In this document: piece by piece, positions 1 through 59,770 of the stretch
Position numbering within the stretch: position 1 is the first letter of the stretch
Layout of the letters: each line of letters starts with the position of its first letter
Origin: Erodium maritimum
Lineage: Eukaryota; Streptophyta; Magnoliopsida; Geraniales; Geraniaceae
Assembly: GCA_963921825.1 (NCBI GenBank)
Contig: OY997592.1
Coordinates: 57,866,336-57,930,335, forward strand
Direction: 5' to 3'
DNA: 64,000 nucleotides
Translations under genes and position numbers: made by a program
Notes under the pieces: model-generated
Told to the model about the DNA's origin: nothing
The model's database searches: none
Seen by the model: the letters and a program-made list of their open reading frames with translations, nothing else

Positions 1-56
1 CAGAAAAAGCCAAATCCGCAATCGATAATCTCCATCAGTCCACTTCTTCTTCCTAT

Positions 57-110
57 TTTTACTCAGCGGGGCAGGTCCTTATGTCCTTGTCTTGCGTTAT
101 GTGTGTACAA
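57..110 (-). repeat. Second copy of the transposase zinc-knuckle tail
   Basis: On the minus strand this reads QDKDIRTCPAE then stop, a close match to QDHDKRTCPLN at 335-370. The DNA context (GGCAGGTCCTT.TGTC then CTTGC) is shared too. It is a duplicate of the 3' end of the transposase gene lying 250 bp beyond the present end, so the gene end was duplicated locally or an adjacent copy starts here. Confidence 0.6.
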
Positions 111-278
111 TATATTATATTAAATTTCATATAAATAAAAACATGTGCAGAAATGAAATTTATTAATTCGGAAAACTCAAACAAATGTATCATCAAACAG
201 TCTTTATTTATTCGCAAAACTTATTGTCTATATTCGCAAACTGAAACAACAAAATCCGCAGTTGAAAATATACATCAT

Positions 279-298
279 TTCTACTTCTTCTTATTCTT

Positions 299-329
<31 letters not shown>

Positions 330-330
330 T
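279..330. repeat. (TTC)n microsatellite, poly-Lys tail of transposase
   Basis: About 14 TTC/TTCTTA units. On the minus strand they encode the run of Lys residues at the end of the transposase frame, most likely a slippage expansion of the final coding or 3' region. Confidence 0.85.
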
Positions 331-2905
331 TCATATTCAGAGGGCAGGTCCTTTTGTCATGGTCTTGCAATGTGCGGCATGTGGCGCATAGCCGTTTTCG
401 CTTGTTACTAGCATTGATTGCCTTTTCTTTATTACTGATCATTCTACTCCCAGATCGCAAGCGAGAGCCCTTGGTGTTTGTGATATTTGGTGGCTGGACA
501 GTGACTATTTCTGGTAATTTGATCCCTGTCACCGATGCTATGAAACTTGGTCTATTGAGTCTATTCTCATTCACTATGTCATCCACCGTCTTAACTCTGT
601 ATCGATTTAGAGTGTCCAACAATCCTCGAATACTTGAAATTGCTGCATCTTCTGTCCCAATCATTTTAGTAAACCTGGTTTTCACTGCATCCATAACTTC
701 ATCGTCCTTCAGACTAGGACCGTCAGGTGCAACACCATTAGAAGACAATGTAGCTGTCAAGTTTGTGTCTTTACACCATCTCGGGTTTACCAGCGTCCTA
801 GGAATCTTCCTTAACGTTGTGTTTTGTAGCGCAAAGAATATGTGAGAACATATATAGCCCGTTGTTAGAAGCTTGTTGCAATTGCAATCAAAGTTGTTTG
901 TACTCATCGTCCAAGTCACCCTGAATTCCTTACCATCTTTAATAATCGACGAATCCCTGACTTTATAGACAATGGTGTCATCTGCGGTGTCATCCATGCC
1001 TGACAAGCTGCAGCGGTTGAGAGCGTAAACTATATGCTTTTGTATGTCAGCAAACACAGTATGTGTGTATACGGTCCAAGCATCCGCTTCAAACCACATG
1101 TTTGTCTTCAGCACCGGATATGAATTGTAGCTGTGCATCATAAGACTGAAATGCTCACTCCTTTAGTTCTCTATCACCACTCCACGCCGCCAGATCAAGT
1201 GAACAAGGTTTAAGTACTGATCTGTGACTTGTTGATAGGCCCGGTTGGCTGATTCAGACCTTGATGTTGTTCTCATAAACAACCCCATTGGGAAATCCCT
1301 ATGGTATGCTGGGATCCAACTGTATCGTAGATCGAATATGCCATTGAGCCAAGTGTTGTCCTGCAAATTGAAGTCTTCAATGATGCTAACCCACTCTTCA
1401 TCAAACTCATCAGGGCCTATAAGGTTGTTGTATACTATGCAATCCAACCTTTTCTCAAAGTCTGTATCATTTGTTATACTTCCAGGCACCTGTAACATTT
1501 TTCATAAGATTTGTAAAGTCGAACAAATAAATAATAGAAATTGACAATACTGTGGCGTATGGATATTTTGTGTTCATAGATTGAGAAAACAGACATAACA
1601 GTTTGAGAATAGATATAAACTCATCGCATAGTAGTTAACTATGAGAACCATATTAAGAATAAAACGTTTTGTGTAAATAAGCATTACAAGATGTGGATAC
1701 AGAGTATATGATTTTCTTATAGAGACTGACCTTAAGACGAATCTTATTCATAATGTGCCACATGCAGAGTTTGTGCTTAGTCTCTGTCATGACTTTCGGT
1801 ATTGCAACTTTCATTGCTGGGTCTTGATCTGTCACCAGATGCATTGGTTGCTTCCCATTCATCGCTTTCAGAAAAGCGTTAAACATCCAAGTGAAAGACT
1901 CGATATCCTCATGTGTTACCAGTCCCAGCCCAAAAGTCACAGATTTGTCATAGTTGTCTACTCCTGTAAACGGACAAAATGACATCGAGTACCTACAAAA
2001 CATCAATCGTTAATAAAGAATAATGTTCAAAATTTCTTTTTCAATGGATTAGCGAATACGAGTTATACTTACTAGTTAGTCCTGTAAGTTGTGTCAAAGG
2101 AAACATTATCTCCGTAAAGCTCGTAATTCTTGATAGCTATTTCATCACACCAGAATAGTTTAGTGAGGCTTCCGCTTGGGTCAACATCGTACTCATAGTA
2201 GAACTTGTTGTTGGCTACCTTCTTGTCACGGAACTGGTCAAGGATTATCTGAACATCACTTCCTCCAATATAGGCTTTCAAGTCCCTGTGGTAGTTGTAG
2301 AAATCTTGCTTCAAAGCTCCAACATGGCTGGGGCCTCCGCGTGTTTCACTGATTAGTTTGTGTGCCTTTGAGGGACCTATTCCCGATCTCTCGCAAAAGT
2401 TCATATACTCAACATGGTTGCCTTCCATGTGTCGGTTACCTCTCATCTCATGTCTGTGCTCCGCTCCAACCATAGGGTGGTTATGACCTTCAACAAATTT
2501 TGATACTTTGTATCCCAATTCCTCCGAAACAAATGTGAACCTTATCATTGCTTCACAATTAATTCTTGTGAGCAATCTGTTCCTCTTTTTTGTAGGCTTT
2601 GAAATTTGAGGACTGTTTTGTTCGGGGATCTCACCCTGTTTGGAGCATACCATGTACTTTAGCTTTATGTTGTTTGTTTTATCCTTCTTCTCGGTAGACC
2701 TTCTTGTAGTGAATCCAGACAGTCTAGCGTAATTTTGGTAGAAATCTATCGCCTTATTCAGTGTCTTGAATTCCTTTCCTACAAACGGGGTTCGTTCAGG
2801 CTGGCAGGATGGCAAGTATATCCTAGTTCCTCCAACAGAAAACAGAACAGTGTTTTGGAGATCTGATTCTGCAGTACAGTCACTGTCTGTGCCTGCAGCT
2901 GATAT
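281..2905 (-). pseudogene. FAR1/MULE-type transposase, lightly broken
   Basis: Read from right to left, an N-terminal FAR1-type DNA-binding region (FVGKEF, FYQNYARLSGF, then NCEAMIRF and FVEGHNHP; about 2480-2790) is followed by the MULE catalytic core. DDE candidates are D in FDTTYRTN, D in LVTDQDPAM and E in SRSESANRAY. A SWIM zinc finger follows (CNCNKLLTTGYICSHIFFA, about 950-885), then a C-terminal zinc knuckle (CATCRTLQDHDKRTCP) and a poly-Lys tail. Introns are apparent: about 1499-1729 has a clean GT donor and AG acceptor, while joining at about 1997-2077 leaves a TAG as I read it. One further in-frame TAA lies at about 1160 between the catalytic exon and the SWIM part. The frame is open upstream to about 2905 without a Met, so the first exon is not located. 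It would cut and paste the element by binding its ends; it is probably inactive, though only a few changes are visible. Host FRS proteins share this layout, but the motif-rich surroundings favour a transposon. Confidence 0.8.
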
Positions 2906-4076
2906 TCATCGAAATAAGGATCAGTTTGAGGATGTAATAATTTCTGATTGCATATACAGCACACATAGAATCAGATAGTTATAATATACTCAAATTGATA
3001 CACAGGCAGTAGTATATAGTAACAGGCAAAGTAGATTATTTAAGTTTTGCGGAAATAAGCAAGTTAGTTTGCGGATATTGCACACCTAGTTTGAGAGTTT
3101 GTCATGGAGGAGATTTTATATATTGTTTGAGAAGAAACAAATATTATATGTTGCTAAATATCGTACAACACAAACTACTGTTTTGGGTATCTAGGCATTC
3201 TAGTTTACGGATAAAAAAACCACCATGATCATGACGTTTTGGTTAACGGAAAATTAGAATTTGCAGCGATTGTAGATTAAAATCAATTTTGTTGAATAGA
3301 TCTATACTTACATATTGTAGATGACATCTCGATTTGTGTATTGTTTGCTGTGTTAAAATCCGACGATATCAATCAATATCTCCGGCGATCTCTGTTGCGA
3401 TTTCGACGATCTCACGGTGCGATCTCAGGTGCGATCTCTGGTGCGATCTCAGGTGCGATATGAGATTTTGTTTTGGAATCAAGTTTCGAAGAATCACAGT
3501 CTTTTAACCTTGTCTGTGATCTAGATTTCTTCGAGAAAACTCCGATCTAGGGTTGATACTTGGAAAATCGTAGAGAATTTTTTGAGAGACTTTGTAATTC
3601 TGTGTTTAATTCGATTTCCTATTTCTTGTTTAGGAACTTTCCGTTTTTGAATTTCGAGGTTTTATAGAGAAAGTTGGGGTAAATTCGCGCGCTAATCTAG
3701 GACCGTCGATATATTATTCGCAATGGACGAACCCGATTCAATTTTGAAAGTTCAATCGAAACATTTTATTTTATTAGCGAATAGATTCTTTGCGTATTTC
3801 ACATTTAGTTTGCGGATTTTTACTGTAAAGTTTGAGGATATTTCCGAAGTAGTTTGCGGATATTACATATCTAGGTTGCGGATTTATGAGTTATTGTTTG
3901 CGGATACTGTCAGTCATGTTGAGAATACAGAAAGCATGGTTTGAGAAAATACAGCATCTAGTTTGAGAATATTTATAGATTCATTACGAAAAGATGGTGT
4001 GTGAAACACCAAACAAAAACATAAAAGAAGACATGCATGAAAAACTAGATACCACCAATCTTCTTCTGGATGTGGC
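2906..4076. other. Non-coding: transposase upstream region
   Basis: No gene seen. It contains the likely transposase promoter and 5' untranslated region, a GATCTC minisatellite (3381-3465), and two clusters of the TTTGCG motif (3041-3135 and 3790-3970). The sequence near 3680-3720 (GCGCGCTAATCTAGGACCGT) resembles, inverted, sequence near 9600-9640. Confidence 0.5.
3381..3465. repeat. GGTGCGATCTC minisatellite
   Basis: Five to six units of a 14-18 bp sequence with core GGTGCGATCTC lie head to tail, upstream of the transposase and probably in its 5' leader. Confidence 0.7.
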
Positions 4077-4346
4077 TTAGGGATCTACAGTTATTTTCCC
4101 GAGGAATTCTTGATACTCCCTCAGTTTCTCAAGAATGCGTTCTTTCGAAGCTCTTTCTTCTGTGTTCCAGGTAAGGTTTTCGTCCGTTTCGATTTCAGCC
4201 AGGAGCTTGACCATCTGCGCATCAATCATCATCATATTGTGTTGTATTTTTGTGTATTTGAGCTTCCATAAATGGTGGATGGAAGCCAAACGCCTGGCTT
4301 CATCATCGGCATTCATCCGAGCCCATTCAGCATTCATTGAGGCCAT
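4077..4346 (-). CDS. Small coiled-coil accessory protein, family A copy 1 (89 aa)
   Basis: An intact 89-residue frame with no recognised domain. It starts MASMNAEWARMNADDEARR and continues with heptad-like Leu/Ile/Met spacing (LWKLKYTKIQ, MVKLLAEIET, ILEKLREYQEFL), which predicts a short helical coiled coil. It aligns without gaps to the two 88-residue proteins at 5112 and 6181: an LK..KI block, a L.AE.E block, NTEER/NADEER, then KL..Y...L and a final I.V. It has its own TATA box 62 bp upstream of the ATG. There is no signal peptide or membrane segment. Being intact, paralogous and embedded in the motif array suggests a selected accessory protein of the element. Function unknown. Confidence 0.65.
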   Translation of the reverse strand: MASMNAEWARMNADDEARRLASIHHLWKLKYTKIQHNMMMIDAQMVKLLAEIETDENLTWNTEERASKERILEKLREYQEFLGKITVDP

Positions 4347-4407
4347 TTTCGTTGCTTTTTTTGAGTTGAAGAGTGAAAGATGTGTGAAAGTAATTACTCA
4401 GTAGTGG

Positions 4408-4415
4408 TATTTATA
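4408..4415 (-). promoter_or_regulatory. TATA box of small gene at 4077-4346
   Basis: TATAAATA on the minus strand, 62 bp before the ATG; the leader between is A/C rich and free of upstream ATGs. Confidence 0.55.
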
Positions 4416-5111
4416 GCAATGGTCATAGGGGGTATTATTGTAATCTTGCACAAAGTAATGGGGTTAGTGGGTAGTTACTTTTCAAGGTCAGAATATCAAG
4501 TGTTTTTATCCAAAATTGACGATTTGTATTTCATATGTATTAAATTCTCAAACAATTATAAAATTATCCTCAAAATAAAAATCACTGGCTCTTTGCAGTA
4601 TACAATCGTGTCTTGACACGCGTCACTTCCAAATCTCACCATTTTTCGATCAGTATCTTTGGTAAATCTCTCTCGAGCCACACAAAATATTTTCTCAAAT
4701 ATTAAACAATAACGAATTATGAAGTTTGCGTTTGTTAATTTACGAGTTTGAGAATATAAGGCAGCCTGTTTGCGTAACCATTGTGTACATTTTGAAAACT
4801 AGGAATTTCTCTCTAGCCACACGAAATATTTTCTCAAATATTTAAGAAGAACGAAATATGATGTTTGCGTTTGTGGCTTTACCAGTTTGAGAAAACAAGG
4901 TATGTTGTTTGCGGAATATTGTATACATTTTGCAAACTAGGTAGTATATTGTAATATATTGTGTCAATTTTAATGCATATTTAGTTAAACAAAAAGCTTT
5001 TCATTGATTCATCTGGAGTCTGAAAGAACAACAAAAAATACGACATCAAACAGAAGAACCAAAAGCCAACACAAAAGACATGAAAACAGAAGAGAAAGTA
5101 CAAGCAATCCC

Positions 5112-5378
5112 TTAGGAGCTCTCTTTCACAATGATTCTAAGTGCAGCCCTATACTTCAAGAGTTTGTTCGCCATGCTTTCCCTACAATCCATGCGTTCTT
5201 CATCCGCGTTGGATATGTCTTCTTCTTCCAATTCAGCCATCAGGTTAATGACCCTGTCATGTGCTATCATCAAATGTGACTTGATGATGGACATCTTCAG
5301 ATGTCGAAGCTCACGTACGGACACATGATGTTCTTTGGCTAGAACTTCCATTTTGAGTTTTTTTGATGATGATTCCAT
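5112..5378 (-). CDS. Small coiled-coil accessory protein, family A copy 2 (88 aa)
   Basis: The frame is open further upstream, but the ATG at 5378 (MESSSKKLKMEVLAKEH) is chosen because the paralog at 6181 begins identically and a TATA box lies 74 bp before it. The 88 residues are charged and helical: RELRHLKMSIIKSHLM, VINLMAELEEEDISNADEER, then LLKYRAALRIIV. No catalytic motif, signal peptide or membrane segment is seen. It is about 60 percent identical by eye to the 6181 product and remotely like the 4077 product. Both duplicate reading frames are intact although flanking DNA has drifted, which suggests selection on the protein. Possible roles are oligomerisation or a partner of the transposase; neither is shown by the sequence. 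Confidence 0.65.
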   Translation of the reverse strand: MESSSKKLKMEVLAKEHHVSVRELRHLKMSIIKSHLMIAHDRVINLMAELEEEDISNADEERMDCRESMANKLLKYRAALRIIVKESS

Positions 5379-5451
5379 TTTCGTGTATATGATCTGATAA
5401 TTCAGAAGAGATGTGAGTGTGAATAATTTTTTATCGGTGATAGAGGGGGTA

Positions 5452-5459
5452 TATTTATA
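5452..5459 (-). promoter_or_regulatory. TATA box of small gene at 5112-5378
   Basis: TATAAATA on the minus strand 74 bp before the ATG; the same box and leader (ACTCACATCTCTTCTGAATT) recur upstream of the 6181 gene. Confidence 0.6.
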
Positions 5460-6180
5460 GGGGTATTGATATAGAGTATTTGGTAGGACACGTGCCAAGC
5501 ACGCACGTAATGTGATAAAAGCACATTTTTGAAATAAAAAGTCCATTATTCGCAAAACGTGATTGTAATTTCCGCAAACTTATAAACCATTTTCTGTAAA
5601 ACAGAATTATTATTTCCGCAAACAAGAATTTTGTATCTTCAGATTATTAATTTCCGAAATTCAACAGGGTAGAAGACGTGTCAAGCATGAAGTAAAAAGT
5701 AAGGTAATCATGATTTTAATTTTTGTTGTGAATACACGCAACCGCCCTTTCATTTCGCGTTTTCATTTCAATATCTTCTGTCATCATTGCAAAAATCTCT
5801 TTGCGCCAAACGATGGCGTCGTCCCATTTCCCCAAATTTTCTGATACCCATTTGATATTTTTATCTTTAGTAAATCTCTCTTGAGCCACACGAAATATTT
5901 TCTCAAATATTAAACAATAACGAATTATGAAGTTTGCGTTTGTGAATTTACGAGTTTGTGAATACAAGACATCTTGTTTGCGGAACCATTGTGTTCATTT
6001 TGCAAACTAGGTAGTATATTGTATTATGTTGTGTAAATTTTTGTGCATATTTACTTAAAAAAAAGATTTTCATTGATTCATCTGTAGTCAGGAAGAACAA
6101 CAAAAATAACGACATTATACAGAAGAACCAAAAGCAAACACAAAAGACATCAAAACAGAAGGGAAAGTTCATGCAATCCC

Positions 6181-6447
6181 TTAGATGCACTCTTCTACAA
6201 CGGTTCCAATTATAGCCTTATACAACTGGAGAGTCTTCCTCATGCTCTTCACGCACTCCTTGTGTTCTTCATCCGCGTTGGATATGTCTTCTACATACAA
6301 TTCAGCCATCAGTTTGGCCACCTTGTTTTGTACTAAAATCAAATGGGATTTGATGATAGACATCTTCAGGTCACGAAGCTCACGCACGTATGCAAGATGT
6401 TCTTTGTCAAGAACTTCGATTTTGAGTCTTTTTGATGATGATTCCAT
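6181..6447 (-). CDS. Small coiled-coil accessory protein, family A copy 3 (88 aa)
   Basis: Intact 88-residue frame starting MESSSKRLKIEVLDKEH, paralogous along its whole length to the 5112 product (RELRDLKMSIIKSHLI, KVAKLMAEL, ISNADEEHKEC, LQLYKAIIGTVVEE). Same length, same TATA position and same leader. Differences are spread out and mostly conservative, as expected of two coding copies rather than one live and one dead copy. The protein is small, charged and predicted helical with a coiled-coil character; no named domain recognised. It belongs to the tandem duplicate unit 5867-6990. Function unknown; association with the FAR1-type transposase is by neighbourhood only. Confidence 0.65.
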   Translation of the reverse strand: MESSSKRLKIEVLDKEHLAYVRELRDLKMSIIKSHLILVQNKVAKLMAELYVEDISNADEEHKECVKSMRKTLQLYKAIIGTVVEECI

Positions 6448-6520
6448 TTTCGTCTATATGATCTAATAATTCAGAAGAGATGTGAGTGTGAATAATTTTT
6501 TATCGGTGATAGAATGGGTA

Positions 6521-6528
6521 TATTTATA
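6521..6528 (-). promoter_or_regulatory. TATA box of small gene at 6181-6447
   Basis: TATAAATA on the minus strand, 74 bp before the ATG, at the same place as in the duplicate unit. Confidence 0.6.
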
Positions 6529-6978
6529 GGGGTATTGATTTAGGGTTTTTGGTGGCACACGTGCCAAGCACGCACGTAATGTGATGAAAGAACATTTTTG
6601 CAAACATAATGTCCATTATTCGCAAAACGTCATTGTAATTTCCGCAAACTGGTAAACCATTTTACGTAAGACAGAATCATTATTTCCGCAAACTAGAATT
6701 TTGTATTATCAGAATATTAATTTCCGAAATTCAATAGGTTATAACACGTGTCAAGCATGCAGTAAAAAGTATGGTAATCATGTTTTTTAATTTTTGATGT
6801 GAATACACGCAACCGTCGTTTCATTTTTGATCTGACTACAACCGCCCTTTCATTTCGCCCTTTCATTTCAATATCTTCTGTCATCATTACAAAAATCTCT
6901 TCGCGCCAAACGAAAAGCTTCCCAAATTAATGGCGTCGTTCCATTTCTCCAAATTTTCTGATACCCTTTTGGTATCTT

Positions 6979-6987
6979 TATATTTAA
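6979..6987 (+). promoter_or_regulatory. TATA-like box of acidic-protein gene
   Basis: TATATTTAA lies about 50 bp before the ATG at 7034. The upstream DNA is a copy of the intergenic block at 5665-5866. Confidence 0.4.
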
Positions 6988-7033
6988 ACATAAATCAACT
7001 ATTTTCTCATCATCCCTATCGTAGTAGGTAGCC

Positions 7034-7669
7034 ATGCCATCATCTCCCAAGTCTCCATCTATTCTGTATTCTAACAGTGATGGAGACAAATGGCAATCTT
7101 TCGAATGCAAGTCTCCACCATCACAAATCTTCAGTAGTGATGATGATGACGACGACGCCTGTTCAAAGAGACGCAGGCTGAATCCTTCCTCCTCCTCCTC
7201 CTCTGATAATGATGATGACCCTCTCATCAATGAGTACGACATTCCTCAACCGGGGGATCCTGATTATGAATCACCCCCGGATGAATATGAAGATGAAGAG
7301 GACAATGAGAAAGAAGATGACGAAGAAGAAGAGAATGAGGAAGAAAAGGAGGAGAATGAGGAAGAAAAGGAGGAGAATGAGGATGACGAAGAAGAGGAGA
7401 ATGAGGAAGAAGAAGAACCTCCAACCGCACCTCCTCCCGCACCTGCCCCCGGACCTGCTCCCGCAGAGGATGATGAAGAAGACAGTTGTTATGTTGATGA
7501 AGATTGGCTGGATGATGATGAAGAAGATGTCCATGCAGAGGATGATGAAGAAGAGCAAGAGGGAGAAGAGGAAGACGAAGACAACATAGACCCATATGGG
7601 GAGGATCCTGAGGAAAGAGTTGTTGAAGATGAAGAAAATTTTTGGGATGATGATGATGATGATGCTTAA
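7034..7669 (+). CDS. Highly acidic, nuclear-type accessory protein (211 aa)
   Basis: Intact 211-residue frame from ATG 7034. The N-terminal third is Ser/Pro rich (MPSSPKSPSILYSNSDGDKW), followed by an acidic patch and a basic CSKRRRLN stretch that looks like a nuclear localisation signal, then a poly-Ser run. From about residue 70 it is almost wholly Asp/Glu, interrupted by a Pro/Ala hinge (PPTAPPPAPAPGPAPAED) near residue 135. No catalytic domain. The composition resembles acidic histone-binding or DNA-mimic tails, or transcription activators, but low-complexity sequence cannot prove homology. It is the only plus-strand gene of the element. Length preservation through repeat-prone GAN codons suggests it is translated. 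It could also be a drifting low-complexity frame, so the role is open. Confidence 0.6.
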   Translation: MPSSPKSPSILYSNSDGDKWQSFECKSPPSQIFSSDDDDDDACSKRRRLNPSSSSSSDNDDDPLINEYDIPQPGDPDYESPPDEYEDEEDNEKEDDEEEENEEEKEENEEEKEENEDDEEEENEEEEEPPTAPPPAPAPGPAPAEDDEEDSCYVDEDWLDDDEEDVHAEDDEEEQEGEEEDEDNIDPYGEDPEERVVEDEENFWDDDDDDA

Positions 7670-8037
7670 TTACTGTAGTTTTTTAATTTTTTTTTGTGGC
7701 AAGTAAATATTTTCAACATATGAAATCAATCATGTTTAAGATTAATTTTGGTTTGTGGATACAGTTGTTTTGTTTTGCGAATATAAGAACCCCAGTTTGC
7801 GTAGATAATCATTCCAATTTGCAAAAAAGTAAACCAAACTGAAAGCCTTTTGCGGATATCGATATAATAGTTTGAGGATGAAGAACAAATTGTTTGCAGA
7901 AAAGCTAAATAGAGCAAATGATATTTCTAGGAAATCTTTTCATTCATAACACAGGTTGAACAAAAGAGCACCATACAAAAAAGGAGTAGAAGAAAGCCAT
8001 CTTCTTCTAGGTCGTTCATTGACTCTTTGGTACCCAA
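7670..8037. other. Non-coding between acidic gene and 8038 gene
   Basis: Convergent 3' ends of the acidic gene (+) and the 8038 gene (-). It carries a dense cluster of at least six TTTGCG/TTTGAG motifs at 7745-7895, all on the plus strand. No open frame of note. Confidence 0.5.
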
Positions 8038-8352
8038 CTACAATATACCAATAGCAACATCCAGTGCCCTGTTAACTTCTGTCACTCTGCACAAGAGGTC
8101 TTTGGCTATAGTTATGCAGTCACCTGACATGTCGTTATCGGCGATTTTGGCTGTCTCAACCACAAGAAGATCGATATCAAGGTTTGCCTCCAGCATCATC
8201 ACCTTTAAGTTCTTGTGCTTCATTGTGACCTTCTCAACATTGAGAAGAACGTTGTATTTTGCGAATATGGCATCTCCCCTCTTCAGCACCTCTTCCTTAG
8301 TTAGAAGATTGATGTTCGTGCTCTTACCCTTCTCGGTGTTGCAAGCATTCAT
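8038..8352 (-). CDS. Small helical accessory protein, family B (104 aa)
   Basis: Intact 104-residue frame (MNACNTEKGKSTNINLLTKE). It is rich in Leu/Val/Ala with heptad-like spacing (LKVMMLEANLDIDLLVVETA, LLCRVTEVNRALDVAIGIL) and no membrane-grade hydrophobic run, so a helical bundle or coiled coil is expected. Similar in size, strand, TATA placement and surroundings to family A, and the block NLKVMMLEANLDI may be a distant match to HLKMSIIKSHLMI, but I would not insist on homology. Unknown function; no domain recognised. Confidence 0.6.
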   Translation of the reverse strand: MNACNTEKGKSTNINLLTKEEVLKRGDAIFAKYNVLLNVEKVTMKHKNLKVMMLEANLDIDLLVVETAKIADNDMSGDCITIAKDLLCRVTEVNRALDVAIGIL

Positions 8353-8428
8353 GGTTTATAATTGGGAGAGAGTTGAGGTTTGCTAAGAGTTGATGTTGAG
8401 TTTATGTTTTGTTTGCGCAGTTTTTCTG

Positions 8429-8436
8429 TATATATA
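8429..8436 (-). promoter_or_regulatory. TATA box of small gene at 8038-8352
   Basis: TATATATA on the minus strand 77 bp before the ATG; the leader is A/C rich (CAACTCTTAGCAAACCTC). Confidence 0.5.
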
Positions 8437-8447
8437 GGCAAAATGTA

Positions 8448-9140
8448 GGGTTTAGTTTGATTGATGGGTCCCTAAACATGTTTAATCTTTAATTGTTTCA
8501 TCTGTATCTCATATGAGGATACAGTTTTTCTAGTTTGCGGATAACGATATAATATTCTGCGGATAACTAACAAATCGTTTGCGTAAAAGCTAAAGAGGAA
8601 AATCTGTTTTTGATTTTTAGTTTGCAAAATTGTTTTATGAGGAAACAGTTAATGTCGTTTGCGAATAGAGGAATCCCAGTTTGCGAATGTTGACAGAATA
8701 CCAAGAAAAACATTTTCCTTCGTAACATAGGTTGAACAAAAGAGTAGCATACATAGGGTGTTTTTTGAGGATTTATTTTTTATTGTTCGAGAATATAATG
8801 GAATCAAAACCAACTAAACCAAAATGTAGGGTTTAGTTGGATTTATGGGTCCCTAAACATGTTTAATCTTTAATTGTTTCATCTGTATCTCATATGAGGA
8901 TACAATTATTCTCCTTTGCGCAAAACGATATAATCATCTGCGAATGACTAACAAATCGTTTGCAGATAAGCTAAAGAGGACAAATCCGTTTTTGATTTTT
9001 AGTTTGTAGAATTGTTTGATGAGGATACAATTAATCTCGTTTGCGAATAGAGGAATCCCAGTTTGCGAAAGTTGACAGAATACAAAGCAAAATATTTTCC
9101 TTCGTAACATAGGTTGAACAAAAGAGGAGCGTACATAGGT
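8448..9140. repeat. Tandem duplication, two units of about 380 bp
   Basis: 8448-8760 and 8827-9140 share GTCCCTAAACATGTTTAATC and the following series of TTTGCG motifs in the same order, up to CGTAACATAGGTTGAACAAA. A third partial unit continues to about 9320. The repeats consist mainly of the motif array and hold no gene. Confidence 0.8.
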
Positions 9141-9689
9141 TGTTTTTTGTGGTTTTATTTTTTTTATTGTTTTAGAATATAATCATTCCAGTCTGCAAAA
9201 GAATGCAATCTAGACCAAGTAAACCAAAATGAAATCTGTTTGCGGATATAGATATAACTGTTTGCCGATAAAGAACAAATTGTTTGCTGTAAAGATAAAG
9301 AGGTCAAATGATAGACAAGTAAAGCAGACATAATTTTTTTTGATGATACTATTATTATTTTTTGCATATATAGAAGAATTTGTTTGAGGATCAGAATTTT
9401 TTAATTTTTTTTCCAGTTTAAAACGACAAGCGTTGTGTTTATCAGTTTTTATTTACGACAATTTGGTCCAAATTAAAATCTCAGAAGAACATGCATAGAT
9501 TTCGGATATAATTATTCTGTTTTGCGAGAGAATCTGGGCCGCGCGCGCCCTGAGAAGAGGCGCGTGGCCCATAATTGGTTCCAATTCGCGCACTTAGCTC
9601 TGAGCCGTAGATCGCGCGCGCTGATAGATGAACGGTCCTGATGCAGTTCACAGGTTCGCATATTACAGGTGGTTCGCACCTTATAGCGT

Positions 9690-9720
<31 letters not shown>
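9141..9720. other. Right flank of the MULE block, no gene
   Basis: The TTTGCG motifs thin out (9237, 9259, 9281, 9382, 9520). GC-rich, CGCG-bearing sequence at 9538-9640 contains GGCCGCGCGCGCCC and an inverted AGGACCGT core, and could be the element end. A (TA)n microsatellite closes the stretch (9692-9720). Confidence 0.45.
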
Positions 9721-9724
<4 letters not shown>

Positions 9725-10085
9725 TGGTATCAGATACAAACCACCTCTTATTGTGTAAACTACGAACTCACCAGGTGCTGACACGTGGGCGCGCGCGCTG
9801 CTGCTGCGCGCGCACAGTGCTGACACGTGGCGCGCATAGTGCTAATAGTTTCGGCGTACAGTGCTAATAGTTTGGCACTGTGCTAAACTATTAGCATTGT
9901 GCGTCCAAACTATAAACACTATGCGCGCGCGTGGTCAACACGCTCACGCACGCGGGCAGAGGCGCGCGCGAAGCGGCCACGTGTCAGCATCGCGCGCGCT
10001 CTGCTGACGTAACTTTGACCGCATCCTGTGACTTAAATTGGTTCGTAGTTTGCACAATAAGGACGATTTTTACTGGATAGCTACC
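9721..10085. mobile_element. Foldback MITE with about 48-bp TIRs, inserted in a TA repeat
   Basis: The left end GGGTTGGTATC...TTATTGTGTAAACTACGAAC is matched by the reverse complement of the right end GGTAGCTATC...TTATTGTGCAAACTACGAAC. The interior is GC-rich and itself largely self-complementary: CGCGCGCG blocks, CACGTG boxes, and AGTGCTAATAGTTT against AAACTATTAGCA around 9880. (TA)n flanks both sides, so the target duplication cannot be sized. No coding capacity. Family is likely Mutator-type or a related TIR MITE. Confidence 0.8.
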
Positions 10086-10823
10086 ATATATATATATATA
10101 TTTGATGCTCGACACCAACATCATGTCAAATAAGATCAAATTTTATAACTTCATTAAATTGTTCGTTTACGAACAAGTGGGAGGGAAGGTGTTAGGTAAG
10201 ATTATAATTGTTGATCAAAAAAATATGTACCACTATCAGTATAAAGTGACATTGTCCTATTTTGTTATTTGATCTAATACCTTGTCATTGTCATGCTTAT
10301 CATTATTTTATTAATTCATATCTCAGGGATGATATTTATGTTAGTGTAGTATTGGATATAGATCTAACTTTATTTGATTTATCTTTCAAGATAAGACTTT
10401 AGTGGATTATAGGGTTTAAATATATATGAGGTGACAAGATTATAAAAAAGCTAAAAACAACTATAGTCGGTGGCGGAAAAGGTGCGGAAAGAGAGTTGTA
10501 GAATGTAAACGACGGCAAAAAAGAAGGAAATGTCGATGGTTTGTGGGCAAAAACACATAGTCAGCCAATTGCATTCGTCACTGGCGGCGACATCGTTACC
10601 GTCGCTTGTAAACGCCAGCATAGAGAACTGTTGGCGGTCAACCAGTCAACGCTGACTGGTTGGGAGCAGCGTAGGTCGTTGGCATAAAATGCACTAGCGA
10701 CATGTGGCATTGCCGCAACAGTTCAATTTTTTTTCTATTTAAACAACCGCTCTTCTTCTTTTCCACCCAACATCAAATTCTTTCAAACAATCTCTCCTTC
10801 TATATTTTATTTCGTTTGTAACG
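10086..10823. other. No gene seen; upstream of SANT pseudogene
   Basis: AT-rich to 10440, then a mixed stretch including a perfect palindrome AACCAGTCA-ACGC-TGACTGGTT at 10651-10672. The last 90 bp are pyrimidine rich (CTTCTTCTTTTCC, then CAAACAATCTCTCC) and look like the leader of the SANT gene at 10824. Confidence 0.45.
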
Positions 10824-17784: not shown

Positions 17785-18290
17785 GTTATTGGTTGATCCT
17801 GCGGGATATTGGTTACGGACCCTGCGGGGCATTGGTTGGTTAATCCTGCGGGATATTGGTTACGGACCCTGCGGGGCATTGGTTTGTTAATCCTGCGGGA
17901 TATTGGTTACGGACCCTGCGGGGTATTGGTTGGTTAATCCTGCGGGATATTGGTTACGGACCCTGCGGGGCATTGGTTGGTTGATCCTGCGGGACATTGA
18001 TTGGAGGACCCTGCGGGGTATTGGTTGGTTGATCCTGCGGGACATTGATTGGAGGACCCTGCGGGGCGTTGGTTGGTTAATCCTGCGGGATATTGGTTAC
18101 GGACCCTGCGGGGTATTGGTTGGTTAATCCTGCGGGATATTGGTTACGGACCCTGCGGGACATTGGTTGGTTGATCATGCGGGACATTGATTGGAGGACC
18201 CTGCGGGGCATTGGTTGGTTAATCCTGCGGGATATTGGTTGTGGACCCTGCAGGGCATTGGTTGGTTGATCCTACGGGATATTGATGGTT
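17785..18290. repeat. CCTGCGGG minisatellite, about 11 units of 46 bp
   Basis: Alternating half-units TCCTGCGGGATATTGGTTA and GGACCCTGCGGGGCATTGG, about 23 bp each, repeat over 500 bp with few differences. This is an expansion inside the LTR; the sister LTR holds far fewer units. Array-like, but there are no unique spacers. Confidence 0.9.
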
Positions 18291-27550: not shown

Positions 27551-30198
27551 TGTCACGCCCCAAATCCGGTTTTGACCGGACTCGAGACGTGAACTAAAGA
27601 AAATAAAAATAACAGTAAAATTAGAAGTAAAAGTAGATTAAAACAACATAAAACTCCGAATTTAGTTCCAAAATAAACAACTCCGATAAACATGAGTCAA
27701 CGCTCTAAATCCAAAATGAAGAAAGCAAGGTCTATACGTCACTACTAAGTAAAACCCCGGGCTCTCAATGAGCTCCCAAGCTCCGAGACGTCCTTTAAAC
27801 CGACTCACGATCGAAACCTGTAAAACAGTAAACAGAGGGGGTGAGCTTTCGCTCAGTAGGAAAAAGTAATAAAGGGAAAGGAATTCCGCTCCGTCACCAT
27901 AATTACTAAACTAATAACACTTGCTAGTAAACGACAACATATACGTAAGTCAACAGGAACACAACTTCATCGACAATAGAACCAAGCTAAAGAAAACATA
28001 CAAAACAACAGGACATTATACTACTAGAACCACTACTAACGTCGCTCAAACGACATCACACGAACATAAGATAGGTAAACCATGATAATCTGACCCACAC
28101 ACGCAGCTCAACATATCGTACCGGAACACGGCCTCGGTCTATATATCTTCTCGGACATTCAGCGTCGGGGTGAAACAAATACATCCTACCGAAATACACC
28201 CTCGGTCTAGATGTCTTCCCGAACACACAGCATCGGGGTGAAACAATACATCGTACCGGAATACCCATCGGTCCAGATGTCTTCCCGGACACACAGCATC
28301 GGGGTGAAACAATACATCATACCGAAATACCCATCGGTCTAGATGTCTTCCCGGAAACGCACATCGGGGCAAGCAAATAATACATCATACCAGAATGCAC
28401 CATCGGTCTCGATGTCTTCCCGGAAACGCAGCATCGGGGTAATTCTCATAACAAACATACCGGACCGGCACACACCTCGGTCGGGTATCTTCCCGTCGCA
28501 TGGGGTACAAGTCACACCACACCATACCATACCAAACATGTTACACCGGACTTATCATACCATCAAAGCTTACCGACACAACTTACCAAGCACACCACAT
28601 CAGCCTATCATTCACCCGATCATATCACAAGACAACAATTCATCACATTCAACACATTCATTCACCCAATCATATCACGAGACCACAATTCATATCACAT
28701 TCATCACACCCTAATAGCATAACAAGATCCTTAAATTAACCAAGGAATATACTATACGTCAACACTAAAGGATTACTAGCCACAACCAAACACAATCAGC
28801 ACACACAATCCTAAGACACGACATGACCACATGTGATTCTACAGCACGACAGTTCCCATAATTTAAATTCGAGTACACTAGTTAATCACATCCTATATGC
28901 AAGCTAAGAATTTACCGGTTATTAACGTCCTATATGCATACTATTAACATTCCTTAATTAAAACGGTATTTACTACTCTTCCCTACCTCAAATGCTATCC
29001 AAACGCAAGCCAAAGCGGAACGCCTAGTAGTCTCCTCCTCCGTGCTCGAGAATCACGTCTAGGATCACAAAGTAGTACTAGAATTAACAATCATTCAAGG
29101 GCGGTTTCAATGAGAAAATACCTACATTACCCCTAACAATCAAGACTTGGGCCATAGGATAAATTGGGCCCGGACAAGGCCCGTTTCGGGCAGCCCACGA
29201 GTCTGGCCAGAGGTCCGGACCGTGCCCCTCAGAGGGCCGGCACCAAGCCCGGACCGTGCCTCTCAGAGGGCCGGTCAGGGACCCTCTCCGTGCCGCTCAG
29301 AGGTCCTTTCCGTGCCAAACTAGGCAGAAACCATCTTCTTCTTCCCCCAACTTCGTTTCCACAAATTTACACCTCAAAACCTCCATTTCTAACCTCATCA
29401 AACTCCAAAATCAGTTTCACAAACCTCCATGCTTCCATACCCAAGTGGGTTTTCATCAAAAAAATCAAAACCCATAAGATTTCTAGCTAAAACTTTCACT
29501 TCTCTTCACTAAACAATCATCTAACAACAAATAACTCAAAACCCATCTAGTTCATGCAATTTCTATAGAAACCCATAACCCAAATTTGATTGAAAGTAGA
29601 TTGTTAGAGCTTACTTACCTTGAGGATGATGAGGGGATGAAGATGGACTAATTTTGAAGATGATTTGAGAAGGAAACCACTAAAAAGCTCCCTTTTTTCC
29701 CACTTGCTTCTTCTCCAAGCTTTTGAGCTCCACTCTCCTCTCCCTATTGTGATTTTCAGCCACCAAGGAAGAAATGGGCTGAAATGTATCCCAAAATGGG
29801 TCTTAAACCTAAGGGAGAAATGTCTAAAATGCACTCTAGCTCCCTTTCTTCTATTTTGGAACATATGAGGGCAAGCGGGTCTTTCTAGACTCATTTCTTC
29901 TCCTCCAAGACACCATGTACACATGTACATATGGGTCCACCTTGACCCTTAGTATTTTCCAGCACACTTAGATTAAATTCGATAAAGTTCTGAATTCGAC
30001 CCCGTTGACCCGAAGTTGACTTTTTCGTAAAAATAGTCATTTGAAAGGAAACGACCCAACTAAGCTAACCGTAACGACGGTTAAGCTTTTTGGGTCCCGG
30101 AAAGGTCTCGAATGACTCCCGGAGTCATCGGTTGACTTTTCCGGCTGAAAGTCAACTTTCGTAAAAAATCACTGGTTCGACCGGGGGAGGTTCTTACA
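27551..30198 (+). mobile_element. Solo LTR, TGTCACGCCCC superfamily, group 2
   Basis: It runs from TGTCACGCCCCAAATCCGG to GGAGGTTCTTACA, 2.65 kb, with perfect duplication CAAAT (27546-27550 and 30199-30203). Internal blocks shared with 33185 and 54883: GGGGTGAGCTTTCGCTCAGT, a CGGTCTAGATGTCTTCCCGG minisatellite (28125-28500), CAGAGGGCCGG repeats (29230-29300) and GAAACGACCCAACTAAGCTA near the end. No internal region. Confidence 0.92.
28125..28505. repeat. TCTTCCCGGA..CATCGGGGT minisatellite in LTR
   Basis: Six units of about 60-66 bp, each with ATACATCATACCGGAAYAC, a CGGTCTAGATGTCTTCC core and GCATCGGGGTGAAACA. The same units occur in the LTRs at 33185 and 54883. Confidence 0.8.
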
Positions 30199-53727: not shown

Positions 53728-54402
53728 GTTGCGACAGTTACAAATATTAAAGGGGAATGAACATCTATTTTATGTATGGGTGGTTATTTGGCAATGTAAA
53801 GAAGATGTCATACCTATTAGAAACCACTCTTATTCTAAAAATTGTATGAATCAATTCTAGACATACTCTCTTAAAATACAACATTTACCATAAAACCACA
53901 TCATCACCTTAATCCCACCAAAAATTCACGCCACCTCCATCCTTTCTCACTCAAGTAAGAGCATAATAGTAATAACATGGTGTCATGTGGACAAGTGTCC
54001 ATTTTTTTTCTTCACTCACTCCCTAATTTAATCATTCCCGTTTCGTTTCAACTCCTATTAGCTTCAAAGTTGCACCAATATTTTTCTTTTTCCAAGAGCT
54101 TTATATCAAGATCAGTCATGAATATATTTTGAAGCACAAAATAAGAAATTATACCGGGGTGATAAAAATAATGTTTAGTGTTAATAAATCTTCACTAATT
54201 AATTTTTTATATCGGCGTATCTAACAAGTGCTGAATGTTGATAAAAAAAACATGTACTGAGGTGATAAAAAAGTATACAAATTTGATAATAAGTGTGATA
54301 AGCTAGAGTTTAGTGTTGATAAAAAACATGTGATGGGGTGATAAAATAAATGTAATTTAGTGATAAACATTGTGTTTAGTGTTGATAAAACTTGTGCTTA
54401 GT

Positions 54403-54704
54403 TTGTTGAACCCCTACAGCATGATGAGGCTGAGGAGGATGTCGAGGATAACGAGAATGAAGTTTTTCCGGAAGTGTCTTCAGGAAATTCAATTCCTGTT
54501 TCGGTTTCAAACCGATTTCTTTGCTTGAATCCGGATAGGGAGTAGGCGAGGTTGTTTACTTTCCTGTTATGTATTTGTTTTTGTTTACGTTTTTATGTGT
54601 TTCGGTTTGGGGAAAAGGTCCTTTTCAATGACCGTTTTTCTTGCATCGTTTTACGTTTTTGTAAAACGCTTGCCTAATAAAACTTTTTCGCTTATCAAAA
54701 AAAA
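54403..54704 (+). mobile_element. 5'-truncated LINE tail, 13-bp target duplication
   Basis: ACTTGTGCTTAGT at 54390-54402 and 54705-54717 flanks a 302-bp insert ending in poly-A. The insert contains an acidic open stretch (HDEAEEDVEDNENEVFPEVS) ending FLCLNPDRE then stop, and a T/G-rich 3' region (TTTTACGTTTTTGTAAAACG hairpin). Confidence 0.8.
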
Positions 54705-56984
54705 ACTTGTGCTTAGTGTTCATAAAAAAACATGTGATGAAGTGATAAAAATCATGTTTGGTTTTGGAAATTGAGGTGATAAAACTAATGTTCAATGTTG
54801 ATAAAACTAGAGTAAAGTGTTGATAAAACCAGTGTAAAGTGTTGATAAAATTACCCATATATAATTTCTTTTTAAATCATCCTGTCACGCCCCAAATCCG
54901 GTTTTGACCGGACTCGAGACGTGAACTAAATAACAAATAAAAATGGTAACTTTAAAACCAAAAAGAGTCTCCAATAATAGTTTAAAAACTCCAAGCAACC
55001 TCAAGAGTCAACAACTTAGTAAAAGAAACAAATAATAAATAAGTTTAATGGCAATTAAGCAGTACGTCTCTAGACCAAGCTAGCCTAAGACCCTCGCTAG
55101 CTCCCTAGCTCCAAGAATCGCGCTAGACCACATCCTACTCAAAACCTGTAAAACAATAAAGTAAAGGGGTGAGCTTTCGCTTAGTAGGAAAAGGTAGTTA
55201 AGGTGATGAGTGTTCACTCGTCACCACGAGTAACCGTCCAATTAGGGCATACTAGCAAAGCACAACACTAATAACACCCACTGAGAATACAAATCACAAA
55301 CACACTTACATGACCACTATCAACCTGTACTCACATCACTTATCCAATCATCAAGCATACAATACACAGTAAAACAATCACACGTCCCGTACCGCAGTCC
55401 CCGAACTCCGCCGGTTGTACACAGCCCGACTCTATCATATCGTACCGGAACACTCAGCATCGACCTAGATTTCTTCTCGGAACCGCATCGGGGCACAGTC
55501 ACAATGCATCATACCGGAACACACAGCATCGGCCTAGATGTCTTCCCGGGAATCCGTCGGGGCACAATCACAACACATCATACTGAATCACAAATCGTCG
55601 GTCTAGATACTCTACACCGGCATACCCCCTCGATGTAGGTATCGTACCGGAACCACACCCCGGGGGACCGCGCATACGTGGGACCACAACGTTGGCCTAG
55701 GTACTACCCTACACCAGCGTACCCCCTCGGTGTAGGTACCATATTAGAATACAACTCCTCTTGGAACACACATCAAGAAAAATGTCACGCATCATAATGC
55801 CATAGTTCAACCACGACTTACCAAGCCCAACAATCTTACCACAACACGACACATCGGTCTATCAACCACCCGATCATATCACAAACATTGGTTCACGTCA
55901 TATCACACTTGCCAAAACACAACAACATACTACACCGAGTATACCACATCATGATTCTCAATCTAGTCACGGATAAAACACACATCAAGCTTCACAATCA
56001 ACGATCATGGCATCACAGTCAACACACAACCTAGGGCTCGACATGGCCCGCATGCATTTCTACAGCACAACAATTTCCCAAACTTGCGGCTCGACATGGC
56101 TCGTAAGCTATCCCTTATTTCACTCGTTCCACACATCCTAACATGAAATTCTAACAATTATAATGAGTTTTCCCAACCTATATGCATACTAGTAACTTTC
56201 CGTAATTAAACCGGTATTCGATGCTTTCCCTACCTCGAACGCTTTCCAAACGCTTAGTCACTTCACGAGGTCCAAAAGTCTCCTCCGCCGGGCTCGGGTC
56301 CAAAGTCTAAGATTATAAGCAATACACGAATTAATGCTAATTCAAGTGTGGATTAAAGAGGGAAATACCCAAATTAATCCCAATTGCTCAACTGCTCAAA
56401 ATGGGCTTGGAAGGCCCATTTTGCCCGGAATCGGGAAAACGTCCCTCGGGACTCAGGAAATTCCCCTTTTCGTGTCTAACATTCATAATTAAATTACTTG
56501 TTCCAACGTACTTGACGGAATTAAATTCCGAGGTCCGAGTGTTCTAAATTTGTAATTAAAGTTTCTAAGCGTTTTCCCCGAAATTTCATGAATCACATCC
56601 ATAATTCGTTCCGGGTGCGAAAACATCGTCCCGGGGTTCACCCACGACCGTTCAAACTACGAAACCACCAAAACCCGTACATGTGGGCCCCACGGCCACA
56701 CTTGGCCGTGGGTGGCCAGACCGGACCGACCGGTCATGGCCCAAGTGAGGCCGACCATGGCCGGTCCCGGTTCTAAGGGTGGCCGTCCATGCCGGTCACC
56801 CCCTCCTCCGGTTGCCGGATTCCGGCGACTGGCCGGAGCTCCGGCGAGCCTCCGGTCGCCGGAAAAATACCTAATCTCTCCAACAAGCTCCTAACTAGTT
56901 CTAGGTTCTCCATAACACCAATTTTAAGCTTTAGAACTTCAATTTTCACCTCAAACAATCCAAAGTTTCAAGACTCATGGTGGG

Positions 56985-58447
56985 TGACACTCTGAGAATT
57001 AACTCTCAGAATGGAACGGCAAGCGTACCGGTCGTCAAGTAGTATTCGGGGTTTAAGTCCGAGATATCGTACCCAAGGGAGCAATTAGACAAGCACTTTA
57101 GTTAATTAACTCGCTAGTCAAGCTATTCCTATAATGGTGTTTGGTTTGTTTTGAAAAATAATAAATTCATGTAAATAATATGTAATATAAATGATCCGAG
57201 AATAGAGAACAAATTCACAAGTGGATTGGATAACAGAGATTAAAGGCGATCTAGGACATTGACGGGGTCCGAATGTGATGAATAACTTAACGGATTCCGA
57301 TACACATTTGCAACTAATACTATTCTAAGGGCAACGGGAATTCTCTAAGTATAGTCCTAACCATCTCTCGATCGTATTAGGACCCTAATATACTCGGTCC
57401 ACCTAATTATCTCTAATCTAGGTGTAGAGCGGTATATAGCATTATGTTCTATGAATTCCTCTAACTTTCGGGTTTTACTTCTATAGTTATTGCACTCGTG
57501 TCAGTCTAACCATATTCTGAATTAGATTAAAACCTGAGCTATCTAATTCCTTTTTCCTCCAATTAACCTCATTTCTCAATTGTTGGTTAATACGATTGAA
57601 TCAATTATCACGTGATCAAGGCAACAAAGCATTAAGAACGGAATTAGATAAACAATATCCTAATACTAGTTTAACAAATTCATAACCAAAATAAGTTAAA
57701 TCAATTCATCACATCGTTCCCCTAGCCCTAGATCAATGAGGATTTAGTTCATCACAATGAAATACGAACACAAAGCAATGATAATAACAATAATAATCAT
57801 ATTGACTGAAAAAGTAATACAAATATCAAAGTATAATCAAAACCTACGAAGAACCTTCGATAATGAGTTTGTATATCTTGTTTGATCTTCAAAACCTCTT
57901 CCCAAAGTCTCTAAAGCTCTCTCCCAATGTGTTTTTGCTCTGAAATTCGTGATCACCTATAATTCTGACCTAATTCCTACTTATACCCGCTCAAAACTAA
58001 GGTTAAAATAGGAAGGTTACACTTAAAAACTGACATAATCGCGCCAGTGCATGTCGCACGCACGCCGTGCACTGGGCAAGCACCATGCATGCTGGCCGCA
58101 CGCCCTGCGTTGATCCAAACGTCAATTTGCGATGCTCTCTGTCCAATATGCACGCCCTGCACTCGGCGTGCGCTCGGCGTGCGTGGTGCATGCTGGCCGC
58201 ACGCCATGCGCTTGGCGTGTGTTGTGCATGTTGGGTGCATGTCGTGCGCCCAGCGTGCGCCTCTGAAATTCAGGTCCTTTTTGCCTTTTTTTGCTCCGTT
58301 TCCATCCCGAATTTCCCGATTCCTTTGGAGATCGATAAACTGCACAAAACAAGAGAAATATTCATCAAACAACACCATCCCGGGACTGAAAAGCTCAAGA
58401 ATGTGGGCTAAAAACATCTCAAATAGATGTATTTTACGTTCACATCA
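56985..58447 (+). mobile_element. Solo LTR of a second LTR family, nested
   Basis: TGACACTCTGAGAATTAAC to GTTCACATCA, 1463 bp, with perfect duplication GTGGG (56980-56984, 58448-58452). Internal landmark GTATTCGGGGTTTAAGTCCG. It sits inside the 54883 solo LTR, so it is younger. It carries a GC-rich repeat at 58035-58265. No internal region; orientation is taken from TG...CA only. Confidence 0.82.
58035..58265. repeat. GCACGCC..TGC GC-rich degenerate repeat
   Basis: About ten irregular units built from GCATGCTGGCCGCACGCC and CGGCGTGCG words, in a sharply GC-rich patch inside an AT-rich LTR. Confidence 0.65.
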
Positions 58448-59770
58448 GTGGGTTTCATCAAAAACAACTCAAATCAAGTGATTTCCATCATCAAACTCCA
58501 TTTCTTCTTCACAAATCAACATCTAAACCATCCAACACCCAAAACCCACTAGTTCAAGTCACCTCTACTCAAACCCACAACACCAATTTCATCAAATAAG
58601 GAAATAACGGATACCAACCTCTAGGAAGTGAAGAGATGAAGAGGATGAAGTAGATTTGGTGAAGAAATGCCACTAAAGGAGCTCCCTTTGTCTTGCTTCT
58701 TCTTCAAGCTTTAATGGAGTTTTACACCCTCTCTCTTCTCTATGTGGTTCGGCCAACAAGGAAGAAATGAGCTGAATTTGTTGCCCCATGTGGTCTTAAC
58801 CTCAAAGTGGAAAAGCCCCTTTCGTCCTTTAGCCCATCTCTCTATTTTGTCCATATGTTGGGACCAATTGGTCTTTTAACCCACTTTTCTTACCCTCCAA
58901 GCTAACATGGACATGTGTCCATGTGGGGACCACTCCTACCAAAAATATCTCAGCTCATATTATTTTATTCGTTAATACTCCAAAATCGACCTAGTTTGAC
59001 CTGGGTTTGACTTTTTCACAAAAGGTGTCATTTGAAAGGAAATGACCCAACTAAGCTAACCGTAACGACGGCTAAGCGTTTTGGGTCCCAGAAAACTCCC
59101 GAATGACTTTCGGAGTCATCAGTTGACTTTTCCAGCAAAAAGTCAACTTTCGCCTAAATTCACCGGTTTGACCGGGATCGACCGGAGGCGGTTCTTACAC
59201 ATCCCCAAAATAATTTATTTTTTTCTTACTTTAAAACATATTCACCACTGATCTTGTTAGAAAGCCCTTGAAAAAACAAAGATATTGACGCAAGTTTGAA
59301 GTCAGTCGGAGTTCAAACGAAGCGGGAAAAATTAAATCATGTTTAGTTTTGAATAATGAGGTGATAAACCCAGTGTTGATAAAATCAGTGTAAAGTATTG
59401 ATAAAACCAGTATAAAATGTTGATAAAAATTACCCAAATATATATTTTTTTAAATCAGCCCTAAATTTTTTTTGTGCTTCAAAATATATTCATGACTGAT
59501 CTTGATAGAAAGCTCTTGAAAAAAAAATATTGGCGCAAGTTTGAAGCCAATCGGAGTTCAAACGAAGCGGGAAAAATTAAATTTGTGAGTTGGTAAAAAA
59601 AATATGATAGTTTTACTAAAAAAACCCTACAACTTACAAAAAAAGGTGTTGTTTTTTCTACAACTCAATTGCATCTCATCCATCCATTCTTAATTTGGAT
59701 GGCTTGGATTGCTTCACACGGTTTTTACGTCAAGAGGTGGTTTCTATTTGATTTCTTCTCATGTAAAGAA

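Follow-up and report, generated by a model that had tools for sequence, protein, structure and literature searches.

The first 9.7 kb of a 64,000-nucleotide stretch of the Erodium maritimum genome (contig OY997592.1 of assembly GCA_963921825.1, positions 57,866,336 to 57,930,335 of the forward strand; hereafter the window) carry a multi-gene transposon whose non-coding DNA is studded with a degenerate 13-bp motif, YAGTTTGMGRATA, repeated mostly at a strict pitch of 22 bp. The element, at 1-9691, is a truncated, degenerate copy of a FAR1-type, Jittery-like Mutator-like element (MULE), and what it displays is a real, non-random and unusual organization in a single damaged copy. We tentatively propose, with a confidence that stays just short of an even chance, that a dedicated protein or complex cooperatively binds this non-coding platform and keeps the promoters of the element active, most likely against silencing. 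An earlier note on the window had described a FAR1-type MULE transposase with accessory genes of its own, five intact accessory frames next to a broken transposase, and one motif dense in the non-coding DNA of the block; all three observations hold. The 22-bp phasing, the TATA boxes and the motifs within the transposase introns are new.

With a weight matrix trained on the block itself and a site threshold of score 9 or more, the block contains 77 motif sites, against 18 in the rest of the window. Fixed patterns give the same picture: TTTGCG occurs 38 times in the block and 6 times in the other 54.3 kb, TTTG[CA]G[GA]AT has 26 matches in 1-9690 against 2 in those 54.3 kb, and all 19 exact matches of TTTGMGRATA in the window lie in the block, as do 57 of the 73 matches with at most one mismatch. 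Equal density in unrelated DNA, the observation that the earlier note had named as speaking against it, was thus not encountered in the other 54 kb of this window. Since the matrix had been trained on the block, held-out halves were tested. A matrix built from 4001-9690 finds 22 sites in 1-4000 (Markov shuffles: mean 1.5, maximum 7 over 100 runs) and 12 in the 53.9 kb beyond 10100, while a matrix built from 1-4000 finds 34 sites in 4001-9690 (shuffles: mean 3.1, maximum 8) and 13 beyond 10100.

The motif avoids exons: the 4040 bp taken as exons hold 3 of the 77 sites, and the other 5650 bp hold 74. Sites are present in introns 1 and 3 of the transposase gene (Table 1), intron 2 having none, and the presence of the motif inside these introns ties the transposase gene to the small-gene region. 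This bears on the idea that the block is a composite, in which a dead MULE happens to adjoin unrelated small genes. A broken transposase beside otherwise intact frames would be expected from such a composite; one and the same phased motif in the transposase introns and around all the small genes, rare outside, would not, and we hold the composite to be very improbable. The distribution also bears on a role in transposition. Direct repeats of subterminal type can be bound for the assembly of a transposition complex, as with the TNPA sites of Spm and the subterminal sites of Ac, and if the transposase bound the arrays to this end, one could understand both its FAR1 DNA-binding domain and the many arrays in the right-hand 1.2 kb of the block. 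The sites are, however, found throughout the 9.7 kb, in introns 1 and 3 as well as in every inter-gene stretch, which makes this role improbable.

The arrangement of the sites is more telling still. Among same-strand neighboring motifs, 32 lie at exactly 22 bp, two at 21 bp and four at 44 bp. When the second copies of duplicated segments are dropped, 26 exact 22-bp neighbors persist among 58 sites, against a mean of 0.8 and a maximum of 7 over 2000 runs in which positions were jittered. The two held-out tests give 9 and 11 neighbors at 22 bp, the remainder of the window containing no such pair. If steps of 21-23 and 43-45 bp are admitted, 20 arrays take in 59 of the 77 sites. Averaged around strong sites, the matrix score likewise has maxima at +22 (z 10.2) and -22 (z 9.4), with further ones at +44 (z 4.3) and -44 (z 4.2). 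Spacers between neighboring motifs are 28% identical, against 34% (standard deviation 3) for random partners. Spacers this unrelated mean that the arrays did not arise by recent tandem copying; the pitch has outlived the spacer sequence. Twenty-two bp being about two helical turns, neighboring sites face nearly the same side of the DNA, and the combination of this pitch with unrelated spacers raises the probability of a binding function.

The obvious challenge to this argument is a functionless turnover of tandem repeats, in which 22-bp repeats would arise by slippage and then decay. Repeat formation has indeed been active here, with tandem duplications of 139 and 382 bp in addition to the one near 1070 bp; further 22-bp tandem repeats exist in the window, and motif cores are not significantly protected between duplicates. 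Decay should nevertheless hit core and spacer equally, whereas the cores persist and the spacers are at chance level, and it would leave the avoidance of exons without a cause. We therefore judge turnover alone to be rather improbable.

The arrays are connected to the promoters of the element. CTATAWAW boxes stand at -70, -82, -82 and -85 before the ATG of the four small minus-strand genes, which encode P89, P88a, P88b and P104, on a background of 27 boxes in 64 kb counting both strands (0.021 per 100 bp and strand), and the transposase gene has a TATA-like box of its own (Table 1). For five of the six genes, an array lies 78-307 bp upstream of the TATA box, at distances of 154-307 bp for the transposase, 139 and 161 bp for P89, 99-165 bp for P88a, 78-166 bp for P88b and 87-255 bp for P104. 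The arrays are oriented as the gene for P89, P88a and P88b, and in the opposite direction for the transposase and P104; arrays are also found in introns and downstream of genes. That arrays occur near promoters and within introns points to a role in regulating the genes of the element itself.

Such control could also be borrowed from the host. One-repeat MYB factors of the I-box/TATCC type bind GGATA, and the motif includes GGATA or GAATA; together with the location of arrays upstream of TATA boxes, this would suit enhancers for a host MYB of this type or for a GATA factor. GGATA is not required, though, because position 6 of the motif is G (0.46) or A (0.42) about equally, and neither the sites in introns and gene-downstream DNA nor the strictness of the pitch is what host enhancers would lead one to expect. 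We thus regard host enhancers as unlikely.

A dedicated binding system accommodates these observations more readily. The element carries a multi-gene accessory cassette, each small gene having its own TATA promoter, and its non-coding DNA would serve as a binding platform made of the degenerate motif at its 22-bp pitch. The arrays would be bound cooperatively by a protein or complex dedicated to the element; an oligomer that binds cooperatively along one face of the DNA would indeed need sites at such a fixed spacing of about two turns, while leaving the spacer sequence free. Once bound, the platform would keep the promoters of the element active, most likely against silencing. The gene content, the enrichment of the motif and its avoidance of exons, the 22-bp phasing, the placement with respect to TATA boxes and the long maintenance of the P88/P89 family as protein are shown by the sequence; protein binding, cooperativity and an activating or anti-silencing effect of the arrays are what we infer from this layout. 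The candidate reader of the motif could be the FAR1-domain transposase, the sole protein of the element with a recognized DNA-binding domain, or a complex formed by oligomerizing helical hairpins together with a chromatin-acting acidic protein. Outside the motif cores, the non-coding DNA of the block has a CpG observed/expected ratio of 1.04, the remainder of the window having 0.84; this undepleted CpG fits little long-term CG methylation, and equally fits a young copy.

The transposase gene is modeled with four exons, exon 1 and the splice junctions being deduced from the sequence, and with canonical GT/AG introns. The model encodes 766 residues and is open throughout its four exons except for two in-frame stops, which lie at the end of exon 2 and within exon 4. 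In a Pfam search in which each stop was given as X, the minus-strand product shows an N-terminal FAR1 domain (PF03101; E 3.2e-16, 60.2 bits, cut-off 28.1) and a MULE domain (PF10551; E 1.2e-25, 90.3 bits, cut-off 27.6). A search for a C-terminal SWIM or CCHC zinc finger gave no SWIM match in Pfam at E<=1; inspection of the sequence shows a CxC...CxH stretch and a cluster of Cys residues at the C-terminus. Between the modeled start codon and the TATA-like box, a short tandem repeat with a 12-bp CGATCTCAGGTG unit occupies 3385-3459.

Three of the small minus-strand genes form a family. P89 aligns with P88a and P88b with protein scores of 68 and 66 (z 6.7 and 6.9), a level reached by none of 500 shuffles, and this signal is confined to the sense frame (z about 7, the other five frames giving at most 3.5), while at the DNA level the similarity of P89 to the P88 genes does not exceed that of shuffles. 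By alignment, P89, P88a and P88b are thus true paralogues, of which P89 is the older, and the fact that their likeness is visible at the protein level only means that the family has long been maintained as protein. The small-protein family of the earlier note therefore stands for these three members; a relation of P104 to them is undetectable, and as a fourth paralogue it was rejected (best z 1.8, a score reached by 29 of 500 shuffles; hhalign probability 0.04%). From a three-sequence alignment, the 88-residue family is predicted to fold as a two-helix hairpin, with helices at 5-52 and 60-86 (predicted local distance difference test, pLDDT, 87.6; predicted template modeling score, pTM, 0.61), while the prediction for P104 is too weak for use (pLDDT 53). 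A structure search with the hairpin returned 209 PDB and 541 viral matches at E<=10 and none at E<=0.001, and none of the five accessory proteins has a Pfam family match above cut-off.

P88a is read from the second ATG of a 144-residue frame that starts at an upstream ATG, and the coding status of the 211-residue acidic open reading frame (ORF) is less secure because of its low complexity. Between 2900 and 9690, there are 11 ORFs of at least 88 residues, antisense and overlapping frames included, against a Markov mean of 0.95. In a neutral simulation such a frame stays open in about 5% of cases, or 14% when internal stops only are counted, so that openness is weak evidence by itself. Searches for relatives of the 88/89-residue family in prokaryote genomes and viral contigs, and for relatives of the FAR1-containing exon and for the exact phased-motif pattern in viral contigs, found none, results that are uninformative on other plant copies.

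Several observations weigh against a dedicated binding platform. All the evidence comes from one locus. No CTATAWAW box precedes the acidic ORF, which has a TTTATATTTAAA stretch upstream, and its closest array sites are at 287 and 331 bp; moreover, only three of the four CTATAWAW promoters are independent, since P88a and P88b are duplicates. Period 22 is frequent among the other tandem repeats of the window, with 13 of 104 rows, of which 10 lie outside the block; those seen at 54-59 kb have units that are alike. Between duplicate copies, 22 of 227 positions changed in motif cores and 146 of 1098 in other non-coding DNA (P 0.15), and in the 382-bp pair the cores are even slightly less conserved (15 of 103 changed, against 31 of 275 in the rest). 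As to the proteins, P89, P88a, P88b and P104 are charge-neutral (isoelectric point, pI, 5.6-7.0), and the helical ones match no DNA-binding fold; with a two-helix hairpin that has no convincing match, the suggestion of the earlier note that the small proteins read the motif is so far unsupported. Nonsynonymous and synonymous divergence between P88a and P88b (dN 0.245, dS 0.322) do not by themselves show constraint, their changes are even across codon positions, and coding positions changed more often than non-coding ones in this duplication (58 of 267 against 91 of 809, P 3.8e-5), which may reflect either fast protein change or homogenized flanks.

The limits of the block agree with the earlier note. 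It is plant-type DNA, its left end lies outside the window, beyond base 1, and its right terminus is probably near 9691. Of the last 30 bases, 21 match the start of a small neighboring element at 9722, the best match of these terminal bases in the whole window on both strands, self excluded. This GC-rich element (9722-10090) sits in a (TA)n run and has inverted ends, with arms at 9747-9767 and 10041-10061 that are 95% complementary; over 50 bases, its start agrees with the MULE terminus at 30. It is possibly a non-autonomous relative inserted beside the MULE. CACGCGC, the FHY3/FAR1 site, occurs at 9560 near the right end and at 9927 in the small element, too few occurrences to serve as evidence.

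Table 1. Positions in the window of the genes, promoters, motif arrays and other features of the element
Feature	Position	Strand	Remarks
FAR1-type MULE transposase gene	281..3327	-	4 exons, two in-frame stops
Transposase exons	3327-3312, 2892-2073, 1992-1731, 1489 to ~281	-	gene model
Transposase introns	3311-2893, 2072-1993, 1730-1490	-	canonical GT/AG
Motif sites in transposase intron 3	1577..1680	+	3 sites, including a pair at 22 bp
Motif sites in transposase intron 1	2922..3216	.	8 sites, score >=9
TATA-like box CTATAAAA of transposase gene	3660..3668	-	array of 8 phased motifs 154-307 bp upstream
Longest motif array	3806..3974	+	8 sites, spaced 22 bp except for one step of 21
P89, 89-residue helical protein (predicted)	4077..4346	-	intact; CTATAAAT box at -70
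Phased pair upstream of P89	4540..4577	-	array scan
Tandem duplication, period near 1070 bp	4793..6990	.	copied the 88-residue gene with promoter and arrays, giving P88a and P88b
P88a, 88-residue helical protein (predicted)	5112..5378	-	intact; CTATAAAT box at -82
Phased array upstream of P88a	5544..5625	-	array scan
P88b, 88-residue helical protein (predicted)	6181..6447	-	intact; CTATAAAT box at -82
Phased array upstream of P88b	6592..6695	-	array scan; also the closest array to the 211-residue ORF
Acidic 211-residue ORF	7034..7669	+	intact; 98 Asp+Glu, pI 4.1, KRRR stretch
P104, 104-residue ORF	8038..8352	-	intact; CTATATAT box at -85
Phased arrays upstream of P104	8509..9395	+	within and beyond the 382-bp tandem duplication
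Probable right terminus	9642..9691	.	inside (TA)n run, end ~9691

Other repeats of the window deserve mention in their own right. A second motif, TGATAAAA, occurs at 54160-54850 and 59377-59428 in units that are alike and in part with a 22-bp spacing (14 sites in 54001-59600, with 6 of their 13 intervals at 22 bp); its host element, with inverted repeats at 54006-54144 and 59219-59602, seems split by a large insertion. Related tandem repeats of 66 and 69 bp (ATCATACCGGAA...) lie at 28115-28440 and 55439-55608, the latter inside the insertion near 54.9-59.2 kb, and a TGTCACGCCCCAAATCCGGTTTTG stretch similar to them was seen by eye at 11081 and 54885. At 17789-18284, periods of 24, 47 and 190 bp are nested within one tandem array.

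The closest functional parallel is with the VANDAL elements of Arabidopsis. VANC proteins bind short motifs in non-coding tandem repeats, among them repeats in introns and upstream of the transposase, and remove methylation, and VANDAL21 with VANC21 and VANDAL6 with VANC6 resemble the present block, in the parts of the sources available, in combining a MULE with extra genes, an element-specific short non-coding motif and tandem repeat formation (PMC5735166, PMC10398659). An element-specific short motif in non-coding DNA is present here as well, a shared working feature that is no proof of common descent. The block is not a VANDAL/VANC system by protein family or by motif: the transposase is of the FAR1 type, the VANC motifs YAGTATTAY and AGTTGTMC occur 1 and 5 times in the 64 kb, no more than chance would give, and never within the block, and neither DUF1985 nor DUF287 has a Pfam match at E<=1 among the five accessory proteins and the four transposase pieces. 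The strict 22-bp pitch is a further difference, not being mentioned in those portions of the VANDAL literature. By analogy, the block may nevertheless work like such a system, and a VANC-like demethylating or anti-silencing role of its platform is plausible. The view of the earlier note that the system is unrelated to VANC thus stands as regards the motif and the proteins, which match no Pfam family above cut-off; its suggestion that the small proteins read the motif has so far found no support, and a reversal of silencing is conjectural.

By its domains, the element is a FAR1-type MULE like the Jittery-related CitMule elements of citrus. In the part of the source available, CitMule encodes 795-805 residues over 5 exons in 6926-bp copies (PMC4334395); the FAR1 and MULE domains are common to both, as is a multi-exon transposase of about 800 residues, which here has 4 exons and 766 residues plus the two stops. 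The Jittery subgroup of dicots and monocots is tabulated with one ORF in what was accessible of another source (PMC6446971). Extra genes as such are not new, because some Jittery-like elements carry ULP-like genes, according to the portion available of a third (PMC2528002); a cassette of small helical and acidic genes is not mentioned for Jittery-group MULEs in these excerpts. MuDR (mudrA and mudrB) and other two-ORF MULEs likewise pair a transposase with a gene of the element's own, although with another transposase class and other accessory proteins, and a motif platform is not described for MuDR in the accessible part of the source (PMC6446971). Our literature searches found no FAR1-type MULE with a comparable system, and when the literature was searched for motif 10-mers, no title among the matches listed was about transposons. 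Short direct-repeat arrays cooperatively bound by a protein of the element are known from plasmid iterons, often about 22 bp apart, and from the Spm/TNPA and Ac subterminal sites. The arrays described here differ from all of these in being spread over the whole element with diverged spacers.

A more far-reaching proposition, which we put forward as speculative and on balance unlikely, is that FAR1-type MULEs evolved whole-element anti-silencing independently of VANDALs, through a cassette of small proteins and an iteron-like 22-bp platform extending over promoters, introns and downstream DNA, which a complex of the transposase, the hairpins and the acidic protein would read. In the literature examined, sequence-specific anti-silencing of transposons is known from VANDAL elements. 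If the proposition is true, a second, unrelated solution in another MULE group would mean that anti-silencing evolves repeatedly. From so strict a pitch one would expect binding to be cooperative and in phase with the helix, and this would amount to a simple DNA code, open to testing, by which proteins might be directed to loci of choice.

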